Below, piece by piece: positions 23,289-37,222 of a DNA stretch of 64,000 nt. The position numbers were made by a program, and so were the translations under genes. The stretch is from an uncultured Desulfatitalea sp. (lineage in GTDB: Bacteria > Desulfobacterota > Desulfobacteria > Desulfobacterales > Desulfosarcinaceae). The stretch spans positions 508,749 to 572,748 of the forward strand of contig CALMNL010000004.1 of NCBI GenBank assembly GCA_937868765.1. The letters are read 5' to 3'. Numbering within the stretch: the stretch's first letter is position 1; every line of letters begins with the position of its first letter. Below the pieces are notes generated by a model, which had not been told where the DNA came from, searched no databases, and saw only the letters and a program-made list of their open reading frames with translations.

Positions 23289-24500
23289 TCACTTCTGACC
23301 GGGATTCGCCATCCGGCCCAAGAAAAGCAGGGTGCCGGTGGCGTCGTGGCGGATCAAGAAGAGAAAGGGATGATCGGCGCGGAACACTTCGGGCGGCGCA
23401 GGCATACTCTTGGTGGCCATCTCCACGGCCGTGGCCGCCGCCGCTTCCGTGCCCTCTTCGTTGACTTCGACAACGGCCTTATGCTTGGCTTGGGAGATGT
23501 AGAGCCTGCCTTTGGGCCAGCCCATGCCCCGGAAATCGGCGCGCATCATGTCGAACGCATCCCGCATGCCCATTGTTTTCAAGGGCAACGCCAGGTCATA
23601 AGCCGTTTCGAGCTTGAACCTGGGCAAATAGAGTTGCACTTTTTGCGGCCGTTGCCCGTCCAGCGCGCTCAGCCATTGGTTCAGACCCTGCGCGCTCATT
23701 CTGGCTTCCAGGTCACCCAGGCCCTGCACCTGCCGGGGCAGCAGGACCACCATCGAGAGCGTTTGGCCCTTGTAAGGAAGGACGATGGCCTGGAAATCCT
23801 CCTCGGAGAGGAGTTTGAAATCGCCCTTCTGATTCATCAGGGGCACATTCACCGTATCGGTGGCCGACCGTTTGAAAGGAGCCTCCCGGGTGAGGCTTTC
23901 GTCGAACCGGCGCTCCCAGATGCCTTTGAAATAGATGGCGTTCAGGATCACGCAGACCGAGTTGGGATCCAGCTCTTCGAGGATCTTCTCGATTTTGGCC
24001 TCGGTCTTTTGTTTGACCCAGTCGTTGATGGCGCCCAGATCGCCCGGGAAGATTTCCGCGGCATAGTTCTCTTCCAGAATCTGTTTGTACTCCGGGCTGA
24101 CGTCGCCGCCGGTGAGGATCAGCGCGTTGGCGATGTTCAGCTTCTGGCCGCTGGGCGCCATGCCGTCCGCCAGCGTCGCGTTGAGCGCCTTGAAGGCCGG
24201 ATACAGTTGGTTCGGATCGAGTTGGAAATGCAGGGTCGCCTTCATTTCCCGGGCCGTGTTCTCTCTCGCGCCGCCATAGGTCATGGCCAGGGCCGAGGAG
24301 ATGCTGTAGGGCGAGAAGAAAGTGTTGCGGTCCGCTTCGACGAGGTGACCGTAGAGCTGTTCCGCAAAAGCGGTATTGCCCCGGGCCAGGGTCTCCTGCG
24401 ACGGTGTTGGCGCGGCGGCCGAGGCCTTGGTCGGGGCGCAGGCGGCCAGGCAGAGAACGCCCAGGAGCAGCGTCGAAAGGGCCAGGCATACGCGTTTCAT
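23289..24500 (-). CDS. Serpin-family protease inhibitor, lipoprotein
   Basis: A 403-residue serpin. A lipoprotein signal ends at LCLAAC, so it is probably tethered to a membrane facing the periplasm or outside. Serpin landmarks are NTFFSPYSISSALAMTYGGA, LILNAIYFKG-type VILNAIYFKG, and the hinge EEGTEAAAATAVEM of the reactive-centre loop, whose small residues mark an inhibitory serpin. Counting from the hinge Gly (P15), P1-P1' would be Lys-Ser, pointing to a trypsin-like or clostripain-like target. DHPFLFLIRH closes the fold. The ATG at 24500 has AAAGGAAC upstream. The gene converges on the radical-SAM block; whether it guards against the CHAT protein is speculation. Confidence 0.95.
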   Translation of the reverse strand: MKRVCLALSTLLLGVLCLAACAPTKASAAAPTPSQETLARGNTAFAEQLYGHLVEADRNTFFSPYSISSALAMTYGGARENTAREMKATLHFQLDPNQLYPAFKALNATLADGMAPSGQKLNIANALILTGGDVSPEYKQILEENYAAEIFPGDLGAINDWVKQKTEAKIEKILEELDPNSVCVILNAIYFKGIWERRFDESLTREAPFKRSATDTVNVPLMNQKGDFKLLSEEDFQAIVLPYKGQTLSMVVLLPRQVQGLGDLEARMSAQGLNQWLSALDGQRPQKVQLYLPRFKLETAYDLALPLKTMGMRDAFDMMRADFRGMGWPKGRLYISQAKHKAVVEVNEEGTEAAAATAVEMATKSMPAPPEVFRADHPFLFLIRHDATGTLLFLGRMANPGQK

Positions 24501-24589
24501 TTTTTGTTCCTTTCCAGATCGATTCGGATTCAAAGCCGGGATCAGTCTAATTGGATGGCGCTGTACTTTCAAGTGCATCGTACATTCAC

Positions 24590-24617
24590 TTGACGCCGCG
24601 CACGACCCCGGCATAGA
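24590..24617 (+). promoter_or_regulatory. Putative sigma-70 promoter
   Basis: TTGACG (24590-24595), a 16-nt spacer and CATAGA (24612-24617) lie just upstream of the secreted-protein gene at 24646. The -35 is good and the -10 is fair. Confidence 0.45.
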
Positions 24618-24645
24618 GTCGCACAAGGCCATGAGGAGGTTGGAC

Positions 24646-25296
24646 ATGCTGAAAACATTCAGGAAAAATTTCAGGGCGGCGCTGTTGGGATGCCTGTCGC
24701 TCTTCGTCTGGGCCGCCTGCGCGGGGGCCGACGAGCCGCAAAAACTGAGCCTCGATCTTTCCATGCCCATCGGCCTCTCCTACCTGATCGAATATCGCCA
24801 GTTCCACGCCGAGCGCTTCATGCTCGTTTCCGGATCGCGTCCGGCCCATGACCTGGCCGGGAAGAGCATCCGGGTGCACGGCAAGCAAAAGAGCGCTTCG
24901 GACTGGCTGCTGGTCGATGGCCCGAGCGCCATATGGGTGACGGGTCTGGCCGGCCCGGGCCATCAGGCCCCGCTGATGCTGCGCGCCCGCCTCGAGGAGC
25001 GGGGCGGCACGCTTGGGTTGCGAGGGTACCAATTGATCAAAATCGGCCTAAAGGAAGAAAAGCGGGTGCGCCTGCGTCCCGGAGAATACCTCTACTACGA
25101 TTTACCCGGCTCCAAGAGCAACAGCAGCCATGTCGAGCTATCGACAGGTTCCGTCCAGATCGTTTTTTTGGACCCGTTCAGCGGCGTCATTCTGCGGGCC
25201 GTGGCACCCGGCATCACCCGCATGCGGATCTACACCCAATGGTGGCAGGATGCCGAGCGCGAGTTTCTTGCGGAATATGAAATTGCGGTGGAGTAA
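24646..25296 (+). CDS. Secreted or lipid-anchored protein of unknown function
   Basis: A 216-residue protein I do not recognise. The signal region MLKTFRKNFRAALLG then CLSLFVWAAC ends at a possible lipobox, with the mature protein starting around GADEPQ. The rest is rich in predicted beta strands (RMRIYTQWW, VQIVFLDP) without clear catalytic motifs. The ATG at 24646 was chosen because GAGGAGG lies 6 bp upstream; an ATG 15 bp earlier is inside that site. It has its own promoter and is divergent from the serpin gene. Confidence 0.7.
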   Translation: MLKTFRKNFRAALLGCLSLFVWAACAGADEPQKLSLDLSMPIGLSYLIEYRQFHAERFMLVSGSRPAHDLAGKSIRVHGKQKSASDWLLVDGPSAIWVTGLAGPGHQAPLMLRARLEERGGTLGLRGYQLIKIGLKEEKRVRLRPGEYLYYDLPGSKSNSSHVELSTGSVQIVFLDPFSGVILRAVAPGITRMRIYTQWWQDAEREFLAEYEIAVE

Positions 25297-25655: not shown

Positions 25656-27101
25656 TTAACGTGGCCAGCGGCGCACGATGTTGCCCTGGGAGTCTTTTAC
25701 GGTGACGGTGAAGCCGTGATCGCCATCCAGGCGATGGGTTGCGCAGCTGATTCAGGGGTCGTAGGCACGCACCGCCATTTCGATCTGGTTCAGGATGCCT
25801 TCGTCGACATGGCCATCCTTGATCAGGGTGCGGGCCGCCTGGTTGACGCTCATGTTCATGGGGCCGAGGTTGTGGGTGGTGCCCACGATGAGATTGGCGT
25901 GGGCGATCAGGCCGTTGCTGTCGGTCGTATAATCGTGAATCAGGGTGCCGCGCGGCGCCTCCACGCAGCCCACGCCGCGGCCGGCCTTGGGTTCGACCTT
26001 GGCGCGCACGTTGGGATCGGTGATCTCGGGGTCCTTTAGAATTTCGATGGCCCGCTCGCAGGCGTAGACCTCTTCGATGAGCCGGGCGTAGTGGTAGAGC
26101 AGCGTCGCCTGGGCCGGACGGCCGAAGAGCGAGCGGAACTCTTCCAGTTCGGCCTGGGCCCGGGGCGTGGCCATCTTGTCGGCGACGTTGATGCGCGCCA
26201 GGGTGTTGGCCCGGTAGATGCCCTTGGGTTGCTCCAGGTCCATGGAGAAGCCTTCGTTCCAGAAGCGCGCGTAGGGATACTTGCCGTAGGAATAAGGCTC
26301 CACATGCTCGCCGATGTAGTTGGCGTAATCCTTGGCGGCGAAATCGGTGTAACTGCCGTCGGCCTTCATGATGCGCAGTTTGCCGTCATACAGGTTCAAG
26401 GCGCCCTGGGCATCGATGGTGCCGATGAAGCCGGTCTTGATCACGCCCAGGGTCTGGATGGCCTCCAGGTACTGGGGGAAGACCCCTTTCTTGGCAAAAT
26501 CGATGGTGAAGAGCGCGAAATCCAGGATCTGCTGCATCTTGTCGAGCATCTCCTTGCGCTCTTCTTCCAACAGCGGTTTGGCGAACCCGCCCACCACGCC
26601 GGCAACCGGGTGGATGGTCTTGCGGGAGAATTTATCCAGCATCATCTTGGCCATCTGGCGGGTCTTGACCACCTGGGTGGCCAGCTCGGGATTGGCCTGG
26701 GCGATGCCGATGACGTTGCGCACGGCATAGTCGGCCGTGGGGCCGATGACGAAGTCCGCCGCCGCCAGGAAGAAGAAGTGCAGCAGTTTGTCTTCGGCAT
26801 GGGCGATGGTCTGCATCAGCTCGCGCAGCTTGCTGCCGGCCGGCGTGGGGGTGACCCCGAAGCAGCCGTCCACGGCCTTGTTGGAGGCCAGGTGGTGCAT
26901 CCAGGGGCAGATGCCGCAGATGCGACTGACGATGCGCGGCACCTCCTCGGCCGGCTTGCCTTCGATGAACTTTTCGAACCCGCGCAGCGACATGTAGCTG
27001 AGACGGGCATCGGCCACATTACCGCTGTCATCCAGGGTGATGCCGATGGAGGCATGGCCTTCGATGCGGGTGATGGGCTGAATGGTGATGGTTTGGGACA
27101 T
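25656..27101 (-). CDS. mvhA: [NiFeSe] hydrogenase large subunit MvhA/VhuA, with selenocysteine
   Basis: A 481-residue catalytic subunit of a group-3 (Mvh/Vhu) hydrogenase that splits H2 at a Ni-Fe site. The N-terminal Ni motif is RICGIC (near residue 62). The frame meets UGA at 25752-25754 right after RAYDP and then continues I-S-C-A-T-H-R. Read as Sec450 this gives DPUISCATHR, the C-terminal Ni-binding motif (DPCxxCxxH) with the first Cys replaced by Sec. A 25-residue tail after His456 ends at TAA 25656-25658; such tails are removed by a HycI-type protease, encoded upstream at 34436. A SECIS-like hairpin follows the UGA. The ATG at 27101 has AAAGGAGG. Without readthrough the enzyme would lose two Ni ligands. 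Confidence 0.93.
25719..25754 (-). promoter_or_regulatory. Sec codon and SECIS-like hairpin of mvhA
   Basis: UGA at 25752-25754 is followed by 16 nt and then the hairpin ATCGCC-TGGAT-GGCGAT (25719-25735 on the minus strand): a perfect 6-bp stem with a 5-nt loop containing GG. Bacterial SECIS elements lie in this position within the reading frame and recruit SelB. Confidence 0.8.
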
Positions 27102-27116
27102 GGGGTATGCCTCCTT

Positions 27117-28043
27117 TTATTTGTGCGCCGGGCGCAGCAACCCATGCGCCCCGGAAAACCGGAGCATGGAGATGCTTTCCGGTAGTGTCGCGATGTCGAT
27201 GCCGTTGGACGCCAGAGCATTGAGCATGTCCAGGCGCTGATTGCCTTCGGGCCGCACCGGACCGTAACATCCCCGGCAAGGCACCCGCGCCGAAACGCAG
27301 CGCGGCACGATCCCGTCGCCGCCGCAGCCGGCCCGGGTCACCGGCCCCATGCACATGTAGCCCTGCTCGAGCAGACAGCGCATCTTGTCCAGAGGTTCGC
27401 CGGGCGCGCCGTATTCCGGGGCCTTCAGAAATCTCTGGACGCTCTTCAATTGGCCCTTGCCTTCCCGGCGGGTGGGGCAGGTGTCGCAGACGCTCTTGTC
27501 CGGCAGCACGGGTGAACGGCCTTCCACCAGGGCCACCAGGGCCGCGAAGACATGGTCCGGATGGGGCGGGCAGCCGGGCAGGTAGATATCCACGGCGATC
27601 TTCTCGTCCAGGGCCATGACCGAGTCGAGCAGCGGCGGCAGGCCCTCGCTGGGAAAGGCGCCCGGCGCATCGGTGGTTTCGGTGGCGTAGTAGCGCTGCT
27701 TGATCTCCTCGTTGCTGAAACTGTTGGCCAGCGTGGGGATGCCGCCGTGGGTGGCGCAGGTGCCCAGGGCGATGATGATCTTGCAGCTCTTGCGAAACGC
27801 CTCGGCCACCTCCACGTGCTCCTGGTTGCGAAGCCCGCCGCTGAGGATACCCACATCGGCCTCGGGGATCTCGATGTGCTTTCCCGTGCCCCGCTGGCCG
27901 AAGTATTTGTGGTCCATGAGGGCCGGCAGGTGGACGAACTGCGCCACTTTGAGCACATCCAACAGCCGCTCGCCCATGTCGACGATGGAGATTTCACAGC
28001 CTGAACAGGAATTGAGCCAATCGCTGGCAACTTTAACGGTCAT
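27117..28043 (-). CDS. mvhG: Hydrogenase small subunit MvhG/VhuG
   Basis: The 308-residue electron-transferring small subunit of the Mvh-type hydrogenase. The proximal cluster motif is SCSGCEIS (about residues 13-19), followed by ALGTCATHGG and LPGCPPHPD, all typical of [NiFe] small subunits. More cysteines near the C terminus (CMGPVTRAGCGG, CRGCYG) hold further Fe-S clusters. There is no Tat signal, as expected for a cytoplasmic group-3 enzyme. The start at ATG 28043 follows AGGAGG; the upstream MPRGGY extension is rejected. It lies 15 bp before mvhA. Confidence 0.95.
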   Translation of the reverse strand: MTVKVASDWLNSCSGCEISIVDMGERLLDVLKVAQFVHLPALMDHKYFGQRGTGKHIEIPEADVGILSGGLRNQEHVEVAEAFRKSCKIIIALGTCATHGGIPTLANSFSNEEIKQRYYATETTDAPGAFPSEGLPPLLDSVMALDEKIAVDIYLPGCPPHPDHVFAALVALVEGRSPVLPDKSVCDTCPTRREGKGQLKSVQRFLKAPEYGAPGEPLDKMRCLLEQGYMCMGPVTRAGCGGDGIVPRCVSARVPCRGCYGPVRPEGNQRLDMLNALASNGIDIATLPESISMLRFSGAHGLLRPAHK

Positions 28044-28094
28044 ATAGCCTCCTCGTGGCAATCGTACATTGCGGACCCGGGCCTCGCGCTTCTG

Positions 28095-29213
28095 TCACTG
28101 GCGAAAGGAGACCGGAGCCGGAGTGTGTCCGCGGCGGATATGGCGCGCGTTTTTCTTCTTCTGGGCGGAGCCGCCGCGGACACCGGCCAGTGCGTCGGTG
28201 ACATAGCTGGCATTTTCCTTGTAGTTGAACTCTTCGATACAGCCGCTGCCCTTGGCATCGGCCAGGCTGGCGCGCCCCAGGGGCGTGCGGGTCAGCACCG
28301 TGGTCCAGCCTTCGGCCGCACCGATACCGCCGAAGGAGATGTCGGCGAACTCGGCGGCATAGTCCGAGCAGAACTGGCAGGCGTAACGTCGGATGGCGAA
28401 CAGGTCGTTGAGCGGGATCGATTTGACTTCCCCGGAGTGCAGATGCAGCATCAGCGATTCTTTGATGTTGACCTTGCGCACCTGGGCCCAGTCAAATCCG
28501 CCCAATTCGGCCAGCTCGGCCCGTTCGGCTTCGCCGAAGACGAAGTTGCCCGAGCAGAAGAGCCCCAGGCACAGCTTGATGGCATCCGATGGGACCAGTT
28601 CCATGGCCTGCATGCGACGCACCGAGTTGATCTGGCAGGGGGTGCCCACCAAGGCCACGCGCTTGAGCCCCTTTTTGACCATAGGGTCGAATTCCTCGAT
28701 GGACGAGTAGGTCATGTACTGTTCGCTGAACTGCTTCATACCGTGGGAGGTGTCGAAGAAAAAACCGGCCGCAGCGATGATCTCCTCCCGGCTGGTGGCC
28801 AAAAACGGCGCCCGCTGGAATGGCCCGATCTGCCGGGTCACGATGGCACCGTCGATGCGCCCGCGGTCGAACAAGTGCAGCAGCAGGGCGGTCACCACAC
28901 CGCCGTCGGTGGCCTTGGCCAGGATCTCTTTGTCCGTGGCGCGGGCCACCGAGGTCTCGATCACCCGCCCCATGGGCTCGCTCCAGTTGGCCCGACGCCG
29001 GATCTCTTCTTCGAGCTCCTCGATCTCCGGACAGATGGCATGGCACAACCCGCACTCAATGCACTTTTCGATCTCGTCGTAACAGGGCTTGCCCTCGTCA
29101 TCGATCTTGAGGGCACCGTAGTTGATGGCGGTACAGAAAGTGACGCAACCACCACAGCGATGACAGCGCCCTGGTTTCTGCACTTCCTGGATCAAGTTGA
29201 AGAAAGTCTTCAT
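28095..29213 (-). CDS. FrhB-family Fe-S flavoprotein (coenzyme F420 hydrogenase beta-like)
   Basis: A 372-residue FrhB/FdhB-family protein. Two ferredoxin-like cysteine groups are at the N terminus (CHRCGGCVTFC and CIECGLCHAIC), then KATDGGVVTALLLHL and GTPCQINSVRRMQ, typical of the family, plus CQFCSDYAAEFADIS. In methanogens FrhB holds FAD and reduces F420; bacterial homologues are thought to pass electrons to other acceptors or donors. In this operon it may add an extra redox partner to the Hdr-Mvh complex. The ATG at 29213 has AAGGAG. The lysine-rich tail (QKKKNARHIRRG) is unusual. The exact electron acceptor is unknown. Confidence 0.9.
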   Translation of the reverse strand: MKTFFNLIQEVQKPGRCHRCGGCVTFCTAINYGALKIDDEGKPCYDEIEKCIECGLCHAICPEIEELEEEIRRRANWSEPMGRVIETSVARATDKEILAKATDGGVVTALLLHLFDRGRIDGAIVTRQIGPFQRAPFLATSREEIIAAAGFFFDTSHGMKQFSEQYMTYSSIEEFDPMVKKGLKRVALVGTPCQINSVRRMQAMELVPSDAIKLCLGLFCSGNFVFGEAERAELAELGGFDWAQVRKVNIKESLMLHLHSGEVKSIPLNDLFAIRRYACQFCSDYAAEFADISFGGIGAAEGWTTVLTRTPLGRASLADAKGSGCIEEFNYKENASYVTDALAGVRGGSAQKKKNARHIRRGHTPAPVSFRQ

Positions 29214-29286
29214 AACGGCTCCTTAAAGCACAGCGACTTTCGGCTGGGTTTGTCTGTTCGTCAATCGGCTGGCAGGGCTGATAAAT

Positions 29287-30585
29287 TTACAGCCCGAGCC
29301 GCGCCAGGTCCGGCCCCAGGTAAGTCCGTTCGTTTTCTCCCAGTACGCCCATGGCCAGGCAGAGTATGGTCCACAGGTGCACCGTATGGTATTTGCCTTG
29401 GTAGTGCTCGCTCAGGTCGTGCACCTGGGCGTGGCAGTTGTGGCACGGCGTCACGCAGTAGTCCGCCCCCGTGGCCTGGATCTGCTCGAACTTGATCCGG
29501 CCATAGTTTCGGCGTGCTTCGGGAAAGCCGGACTGCAGGAATCCGCCGCCGCCCCCGCAGCAGTAGTTGTTGGAGCGGTTGGGACTCATATCCACGAAGT
29601 TCTCTTCGCCCACAGCGGCTTTCAATACGTAACGCAGATCTTCGGCCACCGGATCGCCGAAGCTCTTGCGCACCAGCTGGCAAGGATCCTGGCAGGTGAA
29701 TTTGATCTTCAGATCCTTGTTCCAGGCGGCATTGACTTTCAGTTTGCCCTCGCGGATCAGCTCGGCGTAAAGTGTAATGATGCTCTTGATCTCGAACTTG
29801 TGAGAGATGTTGAACTTTTTCAGTCCGACCCGGACTGCGAAGAGTTCGTGCCCTCACTCCGTATTGAGCCAGTACTTGCACCCCAGGTCGTCCACCGCCT
29901 TGGCCTTGGTGCGCACCACCTTCTCCCAGTTCTCGTCGTCGGCGATGAACATGCAGTAGTTTTCGGCGGCCCACCCTTTAGACCCGTAGGTCCAGTCCAC
30001 GCCGCCCAGGTGCAGCACTTTCCAAAGGGGCACCATTTCATCGGGCTCGGTCACCGGCTCACGGGAGTTTTGATTGAGAAAATAGGTGGCGCCCTTCTTG
30101 TCCATGGGCGCGAGCAGGTGCTCGAATCCCGGCTGGCTCTGGCGCACCTCTTCGGCCACATCCTCCACCACGTAGCGCCAGTCTTCCTCATTGGCGCCCA
30201 TGGCGCTGCAGGTATCGCTGCGCAGGGCCATATCGCACGATTCGCGGATGCCCTTGGGGCGACGATCCCGGGGCCAGCTCTTGCGCAGGTTGAAGACCAG
30301 CTGGGGAATGTCGATTTTCATGGGGCAGACGTAGATGCAGCGCTGGCACATGGTGCAGTACCAGGCCCACTGGGTGCGCAGGATCTCTTCATCCATGCCC
30401 AGCGATGCCATGCGCAGCAGTTTGCGCGGGTCCATGCCTTCCAGGCCGGTGGCCGGACAACCGGCGGCGCAGGCGCCGCAGGTCAGGCAGGCATTCAAAT
30501 TGCCGCCGTCGGGCAGCAGGTCCATGACCTTGTCTTTGAACAGGCTCTTTGGCGCTCCTCCGAGGGGAAGTGTTTGTGTGGTCAT
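29287..30585 (-). CDS. HdrCB fusion (Fe-S and CCG domains) with selenocysteine
   Basis: A 432-residue fusion. The N-terminal HdrC-like half has CLTCGACAAGCPATG and CTMCQRCIYVCPMKID, ligands for two [4Fe-4S] clusters. The C-terminal half is HdrB/HdrD-like CCG: CQDPCQLV, NYCCGGGGGF and CVTPCHNCHAQ are intact. UGA at 29854-29856 falls at residue 244, in LNTE-U-GHELF, where this family reads ECGH. The frame stays open for 188 more codons of well-conserved sequence to the stop at 29287. A perfect 6-bp hairpin follows the UGA. AGGAG precedes the ATG at 30585. The first CCG module has lost several other cysteines. The protein should carry the disulfide-reductase-type cofactor; the partner thiol is unknown. 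Confidence 0.9.
29821..29856 (-). promoter_or_regulatory. Sec codon and SECIS-like hairpin of hdrCB
   Basis: UGA at 29854-29856, 16 nt, then CAGTCC-GGGTC-GGACTG (29821-29837, minus strand). Stem length, loop length and spacing are the same as in mvhA and mvhD, and the loop GGGUC is close to the GGUCU loop known from E. coli fdhF. Confidence 0.8.
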
Positions 30586-30593
30586 AGGGGCTC

Positions 30594-31028
30594 CTATAAA
30601 TTGGCCGCCGCGGTCCGCGATTGCCGTCGATTAGGTCCCAGGTCTTTGATCTTTTGAGTGAATTGAGTAACCACCTCAGCAAAACGGGGGGCTTCGGCCG
30701 AAGAGACCCACTCGATGGCGAAGCGCTCCGGATCGATGCCGCTGTCCTGCATCACGAGGCGGATAATTTGGGCGCGGGCTTGGGCTTTGTGATTACCTTC
30801 CAGGTAATGGCATTCACCCAGGTGTCAGCCCATGAGGATGACGCCGTCGGCGCCATGCTGGAATGCTTCCATCACCAGGTCCGGATGGACCATGCCCGAG
30901 CACATCACCCGCACGGCACGCAGGTTGGGCGGATACTGCAACCGCGATACGCCGGCCAGATCGCCGCCGGCGTAGGCGCACCAGTTGCACAGGAAACCGA
31001 GAATGACGGGTTCGAAGTTTTGAGACAT
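30594..31028 (-). CDS. mvhD: MvhD/VhuD electron-transfer subunit with selenocysteine
   Basis: A 144-residue [2Fe-2S] protein that links the hydrogenase to HdrA. It starts SQNFEPVILGFLCNWCAYAG, typical of MvhD, with RVMCSGMVHPD following. UGA at 30825-30827 is residue 68 in ILMG-U-HLGECHY, where the family has GCHxGxCHY. The frame continues for 76 codons (EGNHKAQARAQI, then FTQKIKDLG) to TAG at 30594-30596. The methanococcal homologue VhuD is a known selenoprotein with Sec in this motif. AGGAG lies upstream of the ATG at 31028. Stopping at the UGA would remove half the protein. The hdrCB start follows after 8 bp. Confidence 0.94.
30792..30827 (-). promoter_or_regulatory. Sec codon and SECIS-like hairpin of mvhD
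   Basis: UGA at 30825-30827, 16 nt, then ATTACC-TGGAA-GGTAAT (30792-30808, minus strand), a perfect 6-bp stem with a 5-nt loop. The loop TGGAA differs by one base from that of mvhA, while the stem sequence is wholly different, which points to conserved structure. Confidence 0.8.
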
Positions 31029-31079
31029 ATCTTCACCTTTCTCCTATAGGTGTGTAAGTGCACTTTTCTGACGATTGGC

Positions 31080-34000
31080 TCACCCATTCGCCGCCAGAGC
31101 CGCCACCACCTGGGCTTTGAGCTGTTCCAGCGTAAAGCCGTGCACATAGATGCCGCCCTTGGGGCAGGTGGCCGCACACAGGCCGCAGCCCTTGCACAGC
31201 GCCGGGTCGCTGGCGATCATGCGCCGGGGCCGGCCGTTGCCGTTTTCTTCCATCAGCTTCAGGGCGCGGTAGGGGCAGACATCCAGGCACAGGGCGCAGC
31301 CGTCGCATTTCTCGGTCACCGCCGACTTGATGGCATCCAGCTGCATCTCTTTCCTGGCCAGCACCACGCAGGCCCTGGAGACCGTGGCCTGGGCCTGGGC
31401 CAGGCTCTCTTCGATGGGTTGCGGGTAGTTGCCCATGCCGCACAGGAAGAGGCCGTCCACCGACATGTCCACGGGCCGCAGCTTGGGATGCGCTTCGGTG
31501 AGGAATCCGTCGGCATTGAAGCCGCATTTATACAAGGCCACCAGGTCGTGATTGGGGTTGGGCTCCACGGCGGCCGCCAGCACCAGATGGTCCACGCTGA
31601 GTTCCAGCGGCATCTGCAGGATGGGATCGCTGCAGGCGATGGTCAGGCCGCGGCCGTTGGATGTTACCCTCGGTTTGCTGTCGAGGGTGTAGCGGATGAA
31701 GAGCACGCCGAGGTCGCGGGCCTTCTTGTAAAGCTCTTCGCGCTTGCCGTAAGTACGTAGATCGCGGAAGAGCACGTAGACGTTCATGCGCGGGTTGAGC
31801 TCCTTGAGCCGGATGGCGCTCTTGACCGTATGGGTGCAGCAGATCCTGGAGCAGTAGGGGCGCTGCTCGTTGCGGGACCCCACACACTGGATGAAGGCCA
31901 CGCTGCCGAGTTTGGCAATCTCTGCCGGGCGCTCCATGAGCCGGGTCGCCATCTGAAGCTGGGTCATGACCCGCGGGTCCTGGCCATAGAGATATTCGTC
32001 AGGGCGACTCTCCCGGGCGCCGGTGGCCAGAATGGCGGCACCGTAGGTGATCGACTGGAGTTGACCGTCGACCTCGACCTCGCTGACGAAACTGCCCACC
32101 GAACCGACAGCCGTCTTCAAGGTGGCACTGGTCAGCACCTTGATGTGCTCGTGCTGGTTGACCTTTTCGATCAGCCCTTCCAGCCAGGGCCGCACCGCTT
32201 CGCCCTTGGCCGTGGAGGTGAGGTTCCAGGCGTTGCCGCCCAGGCGATCGGCTTTTTCGAGAAGCACTGTGGGATAGCCCTGTTCGGCCATACCCAGGGC
32301 CGCCGTCATACCGGAAATGCCGCCGCCGATGACCAAGGCTTTCTGAACGACCTGGATGGTGAGCTTGTGCAGGGGATCGGCCAGGGCCGCCTTGGCCACG
32401 GCCATACGCACCTGGTCCTTGGCCTTGGCCGTGGCCTTTTCCGGTTCGCGCTGGTGGACCCAGGAGTTCTGGTTGCGGATGTTGGCCATCTCCACCAGGT
32501 AACCGTTGAGCCCGGCCTCTTTGAGGGTGTCCTGGAAGAGGGGCTCATGAGTCCGGGGCGTGCAGGCGGCGATGACGATGCGATTCAAGTTGTGCTCGCG
32601 GACGCGGGCGGCGATCATGTCCTGGGTGTCGGCCGAACAGGTGAACAGATTGTTCTCGACCAGGGCCACATTGGGCAGGGCACGGGCATATTCGGCCACG
32701 CTCTTCACATCGACGACGCCGGCGATATTGATGCCGCAGGAGCAGACGAAGACACCGATGCGCGGGGCCTGCCCGCTCACATCGCGCTCGGCCGGATAAC
32801 TCTTCTCGCGGGTCAGCGTGCCCCGGACCACATGCAGGGCTTCGGCGGCGGCAGCCGCGGCGGCCGAGGCCTGGGTCACCGAACGGGGAATGGCCTTGGG
32901 GGCCTGGAAGGCACCGGTCACGAAGACGCCGGGCCGGGTGCTGTGCACCGGCGACAGGTTGGACGATTGGGCAAAGCCGAAATTGTCCAACTGGATGCCG
33001 AACGTCTCGGCCAGCTGCCGGCTGCCCTTGGCCGGTTCCAGACCCACCGACAGCACGGCCAGGTCGAATTCTTCTTCCTTGAGTTCACCGGCTTCGGTGA
33101 CGTAACGCATGCGCACGCCGTTGCCGCCCTCTCCGGGTTCGATGGTGTGCGGCCGGCTGCGCAGGAAGCGGATGCCGCGGGCCTTGGCCGATTCGTAATA
33201 ACGCTCGAACTCTTTGCCCGGGCTGCGCATGTCCATATAAAAGACGGTCTGCTCCACCGGCTGGCCCTTGGCGTGTTCGGCCGTGATCAGCATCTGCTTG
33301 ATGGCATACATGCAGCAGACGCTGGAGCAGTACCCATTGCTGCAACGATTGGTGTTGCGTGACCCGACGCATTGGATCCAGGCCACCTTGCGCGGCTCTT
33401 TTTCGTCGGATGGTCGGACCACATGGCCCATATAAGGACCGCCGGCAGAGAGCAGGCGTTCATATTGAATGCTGGTCACCACGTCGCTGATGCGGCCATA
33501 GCCGTAGAAATCCCATCCCGTGGGATCGAAGGGGGTATAGCCCGGTGCCAGGATCACCGAGCCGACGGCCATTTGAACGATCTCTTCCTTCTCCTCGAAA
33601 TCGATGGCGCCGGTGGGGCAGAATTTTTCGCAGGCCCGGCACTTGCCGCGGGTCAGATAGATGCACGCCTCCGGGTCGATGGCATATTTGAGCGGCACCG
33701 ACTGGGCGTACTTGATGTAGGCGGCCTTGCGCTTGCTCAGCCCCATGTTGTATTCGTCGGGTACCTTTTTCGGGCATTTTTCGGCACACGCCCCGCAGGC
33801 GATGCATTTTTCAGGTCGTATGTACCGGGGATGTTTTTTTACGGTGACGTTGAAATTGCCGGCTTCGCCGTTGAAACCGATCACTTCGGACAGGGTGTGG
33901 AGCTGAATGTTTAAGTGCCGACCGCACTCAACCAACTTGGGCGAAATAATTCACATGGCGCAGTCGTTGGTGGGATAGGTCTTGTCCAACTGGGCCATGA

Positions 34001-34397
34001 CGCCGCCGATGCCGGCGCTGCGCTCGACCAGATGGACCGCATACCCCGAATTGGCCAGATCGAGACTGGCCTGGATGCCGGCGATGCCGCCGCCGACGAC
34101 CATGACGGAACCGATGGGCTTGTCTGACATACGCACCTCGCTTTGGATGGATTTGGGTTGAGTAAGGATGGCATTATCAATGGGATGGGCGGGAAGATCG
34201 GGGGCCACGATGGCGGCCACCATCCGTTCGGGGATACGCAGCGTCTGGCTGAAACGGCGGAACTCCGATTCCTCGACCAGGTAACGCTTGCCGACGGTGG
34301 CGGTGGCTTTGAGCTTTCCGCTCTTGATCCAGTTGGTGATGGTATTGCGGTGGACACCGAGCTGTTGGGCCAATTGTCCGATACGAACATCGATCAT
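31080..34397 (-). CDS. hdrA: Duplicated HdrA with selenocysteine and an N-terminal HTH domain
   Basis: An open frame of 1105 residues if UGA is read. Residues 1-50 form an excisionase/MerR-like HTH (VRIGQLAQQLGVHRNTITNW). HdrA begins at Met90 (ATG 34128-34130, with a possible site GAGG upstream), so HdrA alone is 1016 residues. It has an FAD motif VVGGGIAGIQ and UGA at 33951-33953 in NDCAM-U-IISPKL, where HdrA has Cys. Ferredoxin motifs (CIACGACAEKC, CRACEKFC), then a second HdrA-like flavin module (VIGGGISGMTAALGMAEQG) and two [4Fe-4S] motifs (CDGCALCLDVC, CKGCGLCAATC) follow. HdrA is the flavin-bifurcating subunit. The HTH start (34397) has GGAGAG. The HTH could be read separately only if translation restarts at 34130. 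Confidence 0.88.
33911..33953 (-). promoter_or_regulatory. Sec codon and SECIS-like hairpin of hdrA
   Basis: UGA at 33951-33953 is followed after 19 nt by TTGAGTGC-GGTCG-GCACTTAA (33911-33931, minus strand), an 8-bp stem with one G-U pair and a 5-nt loop GGUCG. The hairpin sits 5 nt further from the UGA (by loop position) than in the other three genes, still in the bacterial SECIS range. Confidence 0.7.
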
Positions 34398-34435: not shown

Positions 34436-34930
34436 TCAGCGTCGAACGATCTCCATGATACGCCGGCACATCACCGGCACGGCCGCGGCCACGGCCGGCG
34501 ATAATCCAGGGCGCACCTCGTCGGGCACTTCGGCGGTCTGGGCCACCAGCACCCGAACTTCGATCGGAGTTCCCTCCTTGATCTCCTTGAGCATATTGGT
34601 TGTGGGAAACTGATGCAGGGAGAAGTCGCTGATTTTCTCCGGCTGAATCTGATCCACATCGATTTCATAGATTTGCCCCGGCACGCCGCCGGCCAAGTTC
34701 ATGGCATCCACAATGATTATCTGCTCTGGCTTCTCAGGGTATAGTAGGATGTCAAAGAGCAGGTCTCGGATGGCTGTGCCAATGTCGAGGCAGGCCACAT
34801 GCCGGGGCATTACATGATTTTTGGTCAGGTATTCGATGACTTCGGAGCCGAAGCCGTCGTCTCCGAAAAGGGGATTGCCACATCCAAAAACAAGGCAGCG
34901 CTGGGTGAGATGAGAGCCGGTTGCGAACAT
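34436..34930 (-). CDS. Hydrogenase maturation protease, HycI/HyaD-type
   Basis: A 164-residue endopeptidase of the family that trims the C-terminal tail of [NiFe] hydrogenase large subunits after nickel insertion. CLVFGCGNPLFGDDGFG carries the nickel-binding Glu/Asp position (Asp in GDDG), IIIVDAMNLAG the second Asp, and LHQFPTTNML the His. The longer frame reaches a TTG at 35029, but a sigma-54 promoter at 34994-35010 would start transcripts near 34984, so I use the ATG at 34928-34930. It is the first gene of the Mvh-Hdr operon and should cut MvhA after the His of UxxCxxH. The weak Shine-Dalgarno makes the start uncertain. Confidence 0.85.
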   Translation of the reverse strand: MFATGSHLTQRCLVFGCGNPLFGDDGFGSEVIEYLTKNHVMPRHVACLDIGTAIRDLLFDILLYPEKPEQIIIVDAMNLAGGVPGQIYEIDVDQIQPEKISDFSLHQFPTTNMLKEIKEGTPIEVRVLVAQTAEVPDEVRPGLSPAVAAAVPVMCRRIMEIVRR

Positions 34931-34993
34931 GCGATTTATGCCGTTTGTGCAATGTGTGCAGGTAATGCCTGTGGACGCTTCGGGCATTACAGT

Positions 34994-35010
34994 TCCAATA
35001 TTTGTGCCAA
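34994..35010 (-). promoter_or_regulatory. Sigma-54 (-24/-12) promoter of the Mvh-Hdr operon
   Basis: On the minus strand TTGGCACAAATATTGGA matches the RpoN consensus TTGGCACRNNNNTTGCW except at the conserved G after the first block and the C of TTGC. It lies about 65 bp upstream of the chosen start of the maturation protease gene. The gene for a sigma-54 activator follows upstream (35239-37077). Together these suggest activator-dependent control of the hydrogenase operon. Confidence 0.7.
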
Positions 35011-35089: not shown

Positions 35090-35105
35090 GGGGCGATATC
35101 GCCCC
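35090..35105. promoter_or_regulatory. Perfect 16-bp palindrome, candidate activator site
   Basis: GGGGCGATATCGCCCC lies about 80-95 bp upstream of the -24 element, the normal distance for an enhancer-like site of a sigma-54 activator. The flanking region (35040-35230) is AT-rich and also holds an ATGCA-N5-TGCAT inverted repeat near 35118-35132 and two CATTATT-containing direct repeats near 35163-35195. Confidence 0.45.
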
Positions 35106-35238: not shown

Positions 35239-37077
35239 TCACCCGATCTCATATCGCTTCATTTTGGCAAAGAGCGTCTTGCGATCGAGTCCCATTTGCC
35301 TGGCGGCCTTGCCCCGATGCCAGAGATGCTTCTCCAGACACTGCAGAATCACCTGTTTTTCATAGGCGGCCACCATGGATTTGAGATTCCCATCCCCTTC
35401 CAGGGGATAGGGGACCACCGGGATCTCCGCACGCTTTGGCGCAGCCGGCGACACGGCGCCCAGTTCCAGCACCTGCAGTGAGCAGAAACGAATGATCACA
35501 TTCTGCAATTCGCGAACATTGCCCGGCCAATCATGCTGCTGCAACCTTTCGAGCATTTTGGTGGTGAGCGGCGGCAGCGCCTTTTTCGCACCGTAGAGTT
35601 TCATGAAATGATCGATGAGCAGGGGCAGATCCTCTTTGCGCTCCCTGAGGGCCGGCAGCTTGATCGGCAGAATATGAATCCGATAATAGAAATCCTCCCG
35701 GAACAACCCTTTGCTGATCCGTTCGCCCAGATCCCGGTTGGTCGCGGCGATGATGCGGATGTTGGATTGACGGACCTGGTTGCTGCCCACCGGCGTGAAG
35801 CCGATCCCCTCGATCACGCGCAGCAGCTTGATCTGCATATGCAGGGTAATTTCACCCACCTCATCGAGAAACATGGTGCCGCCATTGGCGAAATCGACAT
35901 ACCCCTCCCGATCGGTGTCGGCGCCGGAGAAGGCACCTTTCTTGTAACCGAAAAACTCGCTTTCGATCAGATTTTCCGGGATCGCGCCGCAGTGCACAGG
36001 CACGAAACGATGGGTGCGGCGCTCGCTCAAGTCGTGAATGGCGTTGGCCACAAGCTCCTTGCCGGTGCCCGGCTCCCCATAAATGATCACGGTGGCGTCC
36101 GTGGCCGCGGCGCTCAGGATCTGCTCGTAGACCTTCTGCATGGCGGGACTTTTGCCCACGATATTGCCGAAACGCTGCCGCCCGGTGTCGCGGTTGAGCA
36201 GAAATATGTTCTCGGATTGGGCTTGCAGGCCGGCCGCCTGGAGGGCGGCTTCGGCATGTTTGCGGTCGTTGATATCCGAAACCATGGCCAACAGAGAACT
36301 TTTTCCGCTGACGTGGTGGATGGGGCTGTTAATGCTCTGATACCAGCGCTGGTCCTTGGGATTGAGCATTTCGAAGCGGACGGTTTGGCCTTTCTGGACC
36401 TGGTCCATCACACAGAACAGGCACGGGGTTTCGCGGCGGTGAATGGCCTGGTAGCAGATTTCGCCGATGGCATTGTGCCCCACCCGCCGCCGGCACTGGG
36501 GGTTCAAATAGGCCAGGCGGTAGTCCGGATCGCAAACGTAGAGAAACCCTTCGAAACCTTCGACGATGGCTTGAAAAAGCGCCTTGCCCTCCAGGTTCTC
36601 CAACCGGGCCTGCTTGAGTTGGGTCATGTCCACGAAAGAGCCGATGGCACTCTGGGTACCCGGGATCAGATCCAGTTTTAGATGGACATCCCGCACCGCC
36701 CCCTGACGATCCACGATGCGCAGCTCCAATTCCGTTGGTGCCGGCTTGTTGTGGCGGCGGTCGGAATGGTATTGGACCATGCGCTGGCGGTCATCCGGAT
36801 GGATGAAGTCGGTCCATTTCATGCGATTTTCGATTTCGGCCTTGGCATAGCCGGTCAAACGCTCGAAACCCTGGTTGACCATGGAAAGGGTCATGTCGGC
36901 TTCCTTGACGAAGGTGCCGGCCCCGGTGTTTTCGAATACCGTGCGGTAACGCGCCTCGCTCTCCATGTAGACGGTCCGCTCTTTCTCATACCGGCGGACG
37001 AAGTGCTCCAGCAATGCGATCTTGGCATGAAGCTGAACGACTTCCGTGGTCAATTGTTCCTTGGTCTTGATCTCCAT
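35239..37077 (-). CDS. Sigma-54-dependent activator with two PAS domains
   Basis: A 612-residue NtrC-family activator. A short coiled coil (about 5-45) is followed by PAS 1 (TVFENTGAGTFVKEAD) and PAS 2 (VCDPDYRLAYLN), the AAA+ domain and a Fis-type HTH (GKAARQMGLDRKTLFAKMK). Walker A is GEPGTGKE. The sigma-54 contact loop reads GAFSGA instead of GAFTGA, a conservative change. PAS 2 has a cysteine group (EICYQ, then ETPCLFC) that could hold a metal or sense redox state. The ATG at 37077 has GGGGAAA upstream. It lies just upstream of the Mvh-Hdr operon, with the same orientation, and probably activates its -24/-12 promoter. The signal is unknown. Confidence 0.92.
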   Translation of the reverse strand: MEIKTKEQLTTEVVQLHAKIALLEHFVRRYEKERTVYMESEARYRTVFENTGAGTFVKEADMTLSMVNQGFERLTGYAKAEIENRMKWTDFIHPDDRQRMVQYHSDRRHNKPAPTELELRIVDRQGAVRDVHLKLDLIPGTQSAIGSFVDMTQLKQARLENLEGKALFQAIVEGFEGFLYVCDPDYRLAYLNPQCRRRVGHNAIGEICYQAIHRRETPCLFCVMDQVQKGQTVRFEMLNPKDQRWYQSINSPIHHVSGKSSLLAMVSDINDRKHAEAALQAAGLQAQSENIFLLNRDTGRQRFGNIVGKSPAMQKVYEQILSAAATDATVIIYGEPGTGKELVANAIHDLSERRTHRFVPVHCGAIPENLIESEFFGYKKGAFSGADTDREGYVDFANGGTMFLDEVGEITLHMQIKLLRVIEGIGFTPVGSNQVRQSNIRIIAATNRDLGERISKGLFREDFYYRIHILPIKLPALRERKEDLPLLIDHFMKLYGAKKALPPLTTKMLERLQQHDWPGNVRELQNVIIRFCSLQVLELGAVSPAAPKRAEIPVVPYPLEGDGNLKSMVAAYEKQVILQCLEKHLWHRGKAARQMGLDRKTLFAKMKRYEIG

Positions 37078-37222
37078 GAATCGATTTCCCCGAATCGGCC
37101 TTATTTTGGGCGGCAGGCAGCCCTGCCGCCGAATGGGGTGATTAAACCACAAAATGGGGAAATATGCCATGGTCCTGTCAGGGGCGGCAGGCTCGAACCG
37201 AACGCTCTTGACCTATCTGCCC

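Follow-up and report, generated by a model that had tools for sequence, protein, structure and literature searches.

Operon layout and the four in-frame TGA codons

The window, a 64,000-nucleotide stretch of DNA from an uncultured Desulfatitalea sp., carries a hydrogenase–heterodisulfide reductase operon in the order hyaD, HTH-hdrA, mvhD, hdrCB, frhB, mvhG and mvhA. The genes and parts are as follows.

35239..37170, minus strand: upstream open reading frame of 643 aa, putatively sigma-54 activator-like from its sequence
34436..34930, minus strand: hydrogenase maturation protease of the hyaD type (predicted start; open frame from 35029), PF01750 and TIGR00072 over cut-off
34131..34397, minus strand: winged-HTH domain and linker, the N-terminal part of the HTH-HdrA frame (PF12728, TIGR01764, model and fold search)
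31080..34130, minus strand: hdrA, tandem HdrA-HdrA, predicted Sec codon 33953-33951, internal ATG at 34130 after GAGGTG
30594..31028, minus strand: mvhD (PF02662), predicted Sec codon 30827-30825
29287..30585, minus strand: hdrCB, GlpC-like Fe-S oxidoreductase, predicted Sec codon 29856-29854 in a UGH motif
28095..29213, minus strand: FrhB-like subunit without internal TGA (PF04432 and PF04422 over cut-off)
27117..28043, minus strand: mvhG, small hydrogenase subunit without internal TGA (PF01058)
25656..27101, minus strand: mvhA, large subunit with VhuA- and VhuU-like parts in one frame, predicted Sec codon 25754-25752 in DPUxxCxxH

The initial annotation had claimed one in-frame TGA in each of hdrA, mvhD, hdrCB and mvhA, and indeed each of these minus-strand frames contains exactly one ahead of its final stop; the positions given there are the last bases of the codons. 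It had further stated that 33 to more than 950 codons follow the TGA, which agrees with HdrA (956), MvhD (76) and HdrCB (188) but not with MvhA, where 31 codons follow. Read through, the chains are 1016 (HdrA without the HTH part), 144 (MvhD), 432 (HdrCB) and 481 (MvhA) residues long and match the expected Pfam families. MvhA scored above the cut-off of PF00374, but did not reach those of the NCBIfam models for VhuA (449 bits, cut-off 800) and VhuU (42.1 bits, cut-off 70). The tandem HdrA chain scored 951.8 bits against the HdrA2 NCBIfam model (cut-off 1100), and MvhG 238.1 bits against NF045875 VhuG, under the cut-off of 450. For HdrCB, the profile search gave only one canonical CCG match; HdrC chains were the sole matches by sequence, and EtfD and HdrB were matched by fold.

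Alignment of homologues showed a cysteine at all four sites, in agreement with the proposal that TGA replaces conserved cysteines. Aligned to 9sw2_F and 5odc_F, the MvhA site corresponds to the leading Cys of DPCxxCxxH; the HdrA site aligns with Cys197 of 5odc_A, at a CxxC position, and the MvhD site aligns with Cys67 of 5odc_D, in a GCHxGDC motif. In HdrCB the codon falls within the CGH motif (UGH here). The FrhB-like subunit is doubtful as a partner of F420, since the one marker of F420 synthesis searched for in the host genome, CofD, gave no match over its cut-off (best 29.5 bits, cut-off 257.45).

Predicted decoding of TGA as selenocysteine

The genes selA, selB and selD and a tRNA-Sec are all present in the host genome, with scores of 614.5 bits for SelA (cut-off 267.9), 360.6 for SelB (242.25), 386.1 for SelD (125) and 72.4 for tRNA-Sec (47). 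Immediately 3' of the TGA codons, four SECIS-like hairpins were located.

33911..33931, minus strand: SECIS-like hairpin of hdrA, 8 bp, loop GGUCG
30792..30808, minus strand: SECIS-like hairpin of mvhD
29821..29837, minus strand: SECIS-like hairpin of hdrCB
25719..25735, minus strand: SECIS-like hairpin of mvhA, 6 bp, loop UGGAU

By a simple hairpin rule, with the threshold set at the 95th percentile of 3000 random windows, such a hairpin follows 205 of the 216 distinct TGA alleles (hdrA 63/64, mvhD 47/47, hdrCB 53/58, mvhA 42/47), compared with three of the 55 Cys alleles (hdrA 1/11, mvhD 0/32, hdrCB 2/12). Stem pairs were formed in 85-96% of cells for TGA alleles and in 51-58% for Cys alleles, the stems (like the repeats described below) having been picked after the window and five relatives had been viewed. 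In 21 of the 64 hdrA TGA alleles the hairpin is in a different register from that of the window, and two-sided stem changes were found for a single pair in hdrA and a single pair in mvhD. The ordinary TGA stops of hyaD, hdrA and frhB scored 0, 0 and 12 against the threshold of 13.5. Six of the 49 long stop-to-stop frames with a terminal TGA in the window also exceed this threshold, so a hairpin by itself proves nothing.

The codon aligned with each site was compared across 100 stretches (L046-L145, with one overlapping pair on contig C5) and the window, after removal of alignments with E >1e-20, identity <30% or too little context, and of those gapped at the site. Stretches L086-L125 had been chosen for an MvhA with TGA, and L126-L145 for an HTH match (20 of 36 genomes with a match, the host genome included; 12 further ones were left out). 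In this set the codon is either TGA or Cys and nothing else: 67 TGA and 12 Cys in hdrA, 49 and 32 in mvhD, 60 and 12 in hdrCB, and 48 and 0 in mvhA. A further set, hereafter the named loci, comprises the best 80 of 182 loci found by the motif HRNT[VI][RTS]NW and includes Desulfosarcina widdelii, Desulfacinum infernum and Desulfothermus okinawensis. Six of them have neither Sec nor Cys at the hdrCB site (L171 G, L177 L, L183 F, L187 T, L208 S and L216 S); some of these residues may be misalignments, although the Phe of L183 is also seen in a good alignment. Sec/Cys exchange at the mvhA site was found in two loci, L182 and L184. The Desulfothermus okinawensis locus, L225, carries TGA in hdrA, mvhD and hdrCB, its mvhA falling outside the stretch, and L099 carries TGA in hdrA, mvhD and mvhA but lacks hdrCB in the operon.

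Taken with the motif and structure-chain alignments, the machinery, the exchange and the hairpins support Sec at all four sites, as initially proposed, and the reading of the four TGA codons as Sec is well supported; actual Sec incorporation and assembly of the complex are predicted from these data. The initial annotation had gone further and described the whole path from H2 to heterodisulfide as selenium-dependent. The dependence is not obligate for the path as a whole, since in one relative, L116, three sites are Cys while MvhA keeps its TGA. The acceptor, moreover, need not be the CoM-CoB heterodisulfide.

The winged-HTH domain and the upstream repeats

A winged-HTH domain (34397-34131), not mentioned in the initial annotation although it lies inside the region described there, is fused in frame to HdrA in the window and to HdrCB in other genomes. 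Searched alone, it scored 42.9 bits against PF12728 (cut-off 27) and 39.9 against TIGR01764 (28.8), which makes it HTH_17/excisionase-like, and 19.3 bits against NCBIfam HTH_BldC, whose cut-off of 77 was not reached. The first Foldseek match of its model was BldC on DNA (best E-value 0.013, none <0.001). The domain may work in a BldC-like mode without being filed as BldC. Among 46 loci with the HTH domain (of 66 examined), the host is hdrA in 27, hdrCB in 17 and neither in two; the fusion is in frame and uninterrupted by a stop in 44 of the 46, and in L091 and its duplicate L166 stops separate the HTH from hdrA. Fusion to HdrA or HdrCB was found in 79 of the 80 named loci. The recognition-helix residues HRNT..NW are invariant across 28 aligned domains that were not selected by this motif, whereas among the named loci, found through these very letters, their invariance holds by construction. 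Among the matches listed in openly licensed PubMed Central full text, no paper described an HTH-Hdr fusion. HdrR of Methanosarcina barkeri is reportedly a separate regulator.

Three candidate control elements lie upstream of the operon.

34934..34960, minus strand: candidate operator of three tandem 9-bp repeats, half-sites from 34959, 34950 and 34941
34994..35010, minus strand: candidate sigma-54 -24/-12 promoter TTGGCACAAATATTGGA, read from the sequence by its consensus
35090..35105, minus strand: palindrome GGGGCGATATCGCCCC, candidate activator site, read from the sequence

Tandem 9-bp repeats resembling TTGCACAAT were found upstream of 30 of 36 operons with the HTH domain and one of 15 without it, a comparison from which the six discovery regions were dropped, in which the loci without HTH are few and partly related, and which ignores kinship. 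On the plus strand of 42 regions with HTH, 51 repeat pairs are spaced by 9 bp, 16 by 18 bp and eight by 27 bp, and the 15 regions without HTH contain a single pair. Among 47 named loci that are not duplicates, only 20 had a 9-bp pair on the plus strand, and 31 had one on either strand; the loci without HTH that have such a pair on one or other strand are L077, L115 and L118. In the host genome, a strict version of the pattern has one match, upstream of the HTH-hdrA operon. Across 18 genomes it gave 20 matches, 13 upstream of an HTH operon, two upstream of a second hdrA without HTH domain and five elsewhere (L229-L233); the last five gave no match to any of the operon genes and may be due to chance. 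The strict pattern was absent in three of the 18 genomes, and in G160 and G654 its matches were not at the operon.

An AATAATG repeat noticed by eye upstream in the window had one match (L113) among 56 other upstream regions and was discarded. Palindromes of the GGGG-N8-CCCC type were also seen, by eye, in five other upstream regions. A sigma-54 promoter is disfavoured as the cause of the repeat conservation: only six of 49 repeat loci reach a consensus score of at least 12 of 13.5 within 70 nt upstream.

Known systems and the proposed control of the operon

A four-selenoprotein operon, glpC-hdrA-frhD-frhG-frhA, was reported in 2006 in Syntrophobacter fumaroxidans and Desulfotalea psychrophila (Zhang et al. 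2006, PMC1794560; 2026 review PMC13188914). The operon described here is therefore not of a new kind, but a well-supported addition to a known type. According to the available portions of these sources, the two share the same four Sec families (homologues of GlpC, HdrA, FrhD and FrhA), a Sec-free small subunit, a duplicated hdrA and an Fe-S oxidoreductase with the UGH motif. They differ in that hdrCB follows mvhD in the window, an frhB-like gene is added and an HTH domain is present, which the same portions (PMC1794560, PMC13188914) do not mention for the 2006 operon. Since the gene order is not matched, the operon in the window is a variant; a second copy in the host genome, on contig C5 (L125), has a split hdrA and is closer to the 2006 order. 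The archaeal HdrABC-MvhAGD/Vhu complex (5odc; PMC6019823) likewise has homologues of HdrA, MvhD, MvhG and MvhA, and the Sec sites have cysteine counterparts in 5odc, but in the window the HdrC and HdrB parts form one HdrCB chain, HdrA is doubled and carries the HTH, and an FrhB-like subunit is present.

Each BldC protomer occupies a 9-bp direct repeat (PMC5859096). BldC resembles the domain in the window in its winged HTH, the first fold match, and in its 9-bp direct repeats, but is a free protein of 68 residues, whereas the domain in the window is fused to an enzyme and falls under the HTH_BldC cut-off. Trifunctional PutA (PMC5293562) is a flavoenzyme with an N-terminal DNA-binding domain, and the in-frame fusion likewise places a DNA-binding-type domain and a flavoenzyme in one predicted polypeptide; control of its own genes is our proposal here, and the ribbon-helix-helix domain and membrane switching are features of PutA.

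The reading that we favour, with a probability of roughly 70%, is that a four-Sec bifurcating hydrogenase-Hdr complex binds the upstream repeats through its HTH part and feeds back on transcription. The operon product would be a cytoplasmic electron-bifurcating complex of the [NiFeSe] hydrogenase–heterodisulfide reductase type. Four of its redox sites would contain Sec, namely the Ni-binding motif of MvhA, GCHxGDC of MvhD, CxxC of HdrA and CGH of HdrCB, each UGA being decoded by SelB, tRNA-Sec and the SECIS hairpin directly 3' of it. The BldC/excisionase-like HTH on HdrA would bind the tandem 9-bp repeats head-to-tail, and HTH-HdrA so bound would act back on transcription, comparable to the DNA-binding domain of PutA; from an internal start, HdrA could also be made without the HTH in most HdrA fusions examined. 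The sequence-level evidence covers the codons, the machinery, the hairpins, the in-frame fusion, the repeats and the co-occurrence of repeats and domain, and from it we infer DNA binding by the HTH, the direction of control and any switching by redox state or selenium. About as likely as not is the broader proposal that Sec-rich complexes of Desulfobacterota-type bacteria are their own transcription regulators, in which BldC-like HTH domains on HdrA or HdrCB would assemble head-to-tail on the 9-bp repeats of the operon (in two genomes possibly also those of a second hdrA) and hydrogenase expression would depend on the amount of enzyme, on redox state or on the supply of Sec. If true, an electron-bifurcating hydrogenase that takes part in anaerobic energy metabolism would newly join the enzymes that control their own genes, through a fused DNA-binding-type domain and a repeat site nearly unique in the genome. 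Tests in culture are feasible, as the carriers include the three named species listed above.

Unlikely, but the best surviving alternative, is an ordinary four-selenoprotein Mvh-Hdr operon, in which the HTH is vestigial or serves in protein docking and another regulator reads the repeats. Such an operon type is in print, and a sigma-54 activator-like gene lies upstream in the window; however, an activator homologue was found upstream in only nine of 69 loci (49 of the 69 with repeats), and nine is a minimum, as numerous stretches stop too soon after hyaD to show such a gene. The invariant recognition helix, the co-occurrence of repeats and domain, and a period equal to the BldC protomer footprint (PMC5859096) also argue against it. 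Still less probable is a selenium gauge, in which translation of HTH-HdrA without Sec would stop at UGA and the resulting free HTH fragment (~148 residues) would act as a repressor of the operon, the full enzyme being made with Sec. In agreement with this, the first stop is a TGA at codon 143-157 in HTH-HdrA Sec frames and near codon 300-308 in HTH-HdrCB Sec frames. However, the HTH is kept where the host site is Cys (e.g. L116, L128, L130-L133, L135, L139, L140 and L144), and repeats occur in 11 of 19 named Cys-host loci, compared with 16 of 23 Sec-host loci; a gauge thus cannot be the general function of the HTH. An origin of the TGAs in sequencing error, pseudogene decay or codon reassignment is highly improbable: nothing was found in its favour, identical TGA sites recur across many genomes and the Sec machinery is complete, and reassignment is ruled out by the ordinary TGA stops within the operon, those of hyaD, hdrA and frhB. 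Gene calling that ends frames at UGA would report a small HTH protein in place of HdrA.

Operon layout and the four selenocysteine sites

The operon comprises the following frames:

start near 34930, end 34436, minus strand: hyaD
34397-31080, minus strand: HTH-hdrA
31028-30594, minus strand: mvhD
30585-29287, minus strand: hdrCB
29213-28095, minus strand: frhB-like gene
28043-27117, minus strand: mvhG
27101-25656, minus strand: mvhA

Elsewhere in the window, the frame at 23289-24770 has a translation that resembles a serpin.

The initial annotation reported a single TGA ahead of the final stop in each of hdrA, mvhD, hdrCB and mvhA and read all four as selenocysteine (Sec) codons. We confirmed the four single TGAs, and the Sec reading is supported by Sec machinery, Sec/Cys exchange at the aligned sites and SECIS-like hairpins. 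SelA, SelB, SelD and tRNA-Sec all scored over their cut-offs in the window's genome, which spans 5.36 Mb in 18 contigs and whose SelD itself has an in-frame TGA (G000:C6:34195-35121, L013). The read-through proteins fall in the expected Pfam families; several archaeal NCBIfam equivalog models also match operon proteins, with scores under the cut-off. HdrA is of a tandem type, aligning twice to archaeal HdrA. In alignments with Cys homologues, the Sec residues of HdrA and MvhD pair with Cys197 and Cys67 of the archaeal HdrABC-MvhAGD complex (5odc_A and 5odc_D, respectively), and that of MvhA with the first Cys of DPCxxCxxH. The Sec of HdrCB begins a (C/U)GH motif that all but one of 31 aligned homologues retain; the exception, locus L183, has Phe.

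Codons at the aligned sites, SECIS-like hairpins and stem pairs with two-sided changes. The hairpin rule was defined after inspection of the window's four sites, with the 95th percentile of 3000 random windows as threshold.
Site	TGA / Cys codons	Hairpin, distinct TGA alleles	Hairpin, Cys alleles	Two-sided stem pairs
hdrA	67 / 12	63/64	1/11	1/8
mvhD	49 / 32	47/47	0/32	1/7
hdrCB	60 / 12	53/58	2/12	4/7
mvhA	48 / 0	42/47	–	2/6

Among the named loci (the best 80 of 182 relatives), the MvhA site is Cys in L182 and L184, and the HdrCB site is neither Sec nor Cys in six. TGA occupies all four sites in 14 of the 66 stretches examined (L053, L065, L076, L077, L082, L087, L091, L093, L097, L098, L103, L110, L113 and L125), and in the others at least one Sec site is lost, exchanged or outside view. 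The four sites exchange independently, since in L115-L119 TGA is retained in MvhA while MvhD has Cys, as do HdrA and HdrCB where covered.

The hairpin lies 3' of the UGA, mostly 26-31 nt from its U, with a G within the first two bases of the apical loop. For stems fixed on the window, pairs are formed in 85-96% of cells in TGA alleles versus 51-58% in Cys alleles; 21 hdrA alleles use another register. The genuine stops of hyaD, hdrA and frhB scored 0, 0 and 12 against a threshold of 13.5, which was also passed by 6 of 49 long TGA-ending frames of the window.

Relation to known operons and enzymes

An operon of this kind was already known, because Zhang et al. (2006, PMC1794560), a 2026 review and other reports of Sec-containing Hdr proteins precede our finding. 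These sources describe a four-selenoprotein-gene operon and a UGH motif in an Fe-S oxidoreductase (PMC13188914) and Sec-containing HdrA, HdrD and MvhD in Desulfobacterium autotrophicum (PMC2702500). In Desulfococcus multivorans (PMC5109826) the Sec proteins reported are HdrA and MvhD; in a MAG from a marine deltaproteobacterium (PMC8318568) they are a hydrogenase, a heterodisulfide reductase and an Fe-S oxidoreductase. Unlike the published glpC-hdrA-frhD-frhG-frhA operon, that of the window has a different gene order and an frhB-like gene. The genome has another hydrogenase-Hdr operon (contig C5, L125 and L047), whose gene order is closer to the 2006 order than the window's is. Its hdrCB, mvhD and mvhA contain TGA, as does the N-terminal portion of its split hdrA, and the HTH domain was not found in it.

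All 194 genomes of the order contained at least one HdrCB match with E ≤ 0.001, and every match among those listed (E down to 4.3e-218) has one TGA, accompanied in one of them by a TAG. Four of the listed TGA-bearing matches belong to the window's genome. Its three further copies (G000:C7:352476, C5:44397 and C6:59364) have one TGA each, and the stretches surrounding the C7 and C6 copies contain no Sec-type hdrA. MvhA was matched at E up to 1e-60 in 123 of 389 genomes; the matches listed down to E 7.9e-196 have one TGA each, except a fragment in genome G204 that stops short of the Sec site, and in a lower-identity group among the matches listed most have no stop and some a TGA.

In the archaeal complex (PMC6019823), MvhA oxidises H2, and the electrons are relayed by MvhG and the [2Fe-2S] cluster of MvhD to HdrA's FAD, where they bifurcate. 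Judging by sequence, the window's complex may use the same route. F420 is a doubtful partner of the FrhB-like protein (window 28095-29213), and no CofD scored over the cut-off in the genome carrying its gene.

A fused winged-HTH domain and upstream 9-bp repeats

The novelty rests with a fused domain and its repeats, the part deserving experiment. The first hdr frame opens with a winged-HTH domain and linker (residues 1-89; 34397-34131), overlooked in the initial annotation. Top Foldseek matches of the domain are DNA-bound BldC and phage Xis (E 0.013 and above). The domain is present in 46 of the 66 stretches (fused to hdrA in 27, to hdrCB in 17, to neither in 2) and, at E up to 1e-6, in 36 of 395 sampled genomes of the phylum. 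A scan of genome contigs limited to the motif HRNT[VI][RTS]NW gave 182 relatives; among the best 80, 32 of which duplicate earlier loci, fusion is to hdrA in 45, to hdrCB in 34 and to neither in 1, and the record titles give either a deltaproteobacterial group or no assignment. H16, R17, N18, T19, N22, W23 and A31 are invariant across 28 domains. Where the domain adjoins hdrA (29 rows, including the window and the unfused L091), HdrA's own ATG is retained at the usual start in 24, and 22 of the 24 have a Shine-Dalgarno-like stretch; such a start is absent from L088, L089, L101, L116 and L135.

The repeat TTGCACA-N2-TTGCACAAA was noticed in six upstream regions (window, L053 and L087-L090). Among 57 regions, the repeat score reached the 99th percentile of composition shuffles in 40 of 42 with the domain at the operon (HTH+) versus 4 of 15 without it (HTH-). 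Plus-strand GCA(C/T)A half-sites in HTH+ regions are spaced by 9 bp in 51 pairs, 18 bp in 16 and 27 bp in 8, with at most 6 pairs at every other spacing; HTH- regions have one pair. With the six discovery regions dropped, a 9-bp pair occurs on the plus strand in 30/36 HTH+ versus 1/15 HTH- regions, and on either strand in 31/36 versus 3/15. A plus-strand pair is present in 20, and a pair on either strand in 31, of the 47 non-duplicate named loci that had sufficient sequence; the random background is 51 of 2000 windows for the plus strand. A strict pattern gave 20 matches in 18 genomes and its reversal one. By coordinates, 13 of the 20 precede the HTH operon, 2 precede a second hdrA that lacks the domain, and 5 are located elsewhere. 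The single strict match in the window's genome lies upstream of hyaD, with candidate operator repeats at 34934-34960.

Proposed regulation by the fused domain

The fused domain is predicted to bind these repeats. BldC is described as binding head-to-tail, each protomer occupying one 9-bp direct repeat (PMC5859096), and PutA as a flavoenzyme with a DNA-binding domain that can repress its own genes (PMC5293562). A general role of the domain as a selenium gauge, acting through truncation at the host frame's UGA, is disfavoured, since both the domain and the repeats are still found at loci with a Cys host site. For regulation through the repeats, both sign and signal at the operon are putative. 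Action in trans is hinted at by L227 and L228, stretches from two genomes with strict repeats upstream of a second hdrA and no match to the HTH domain. The window's repeats are flanked by a candidate -24/-12 element on one side and hyaD on the other, a layout compatible with repression; across other loci the position and strand of the repeats vary.
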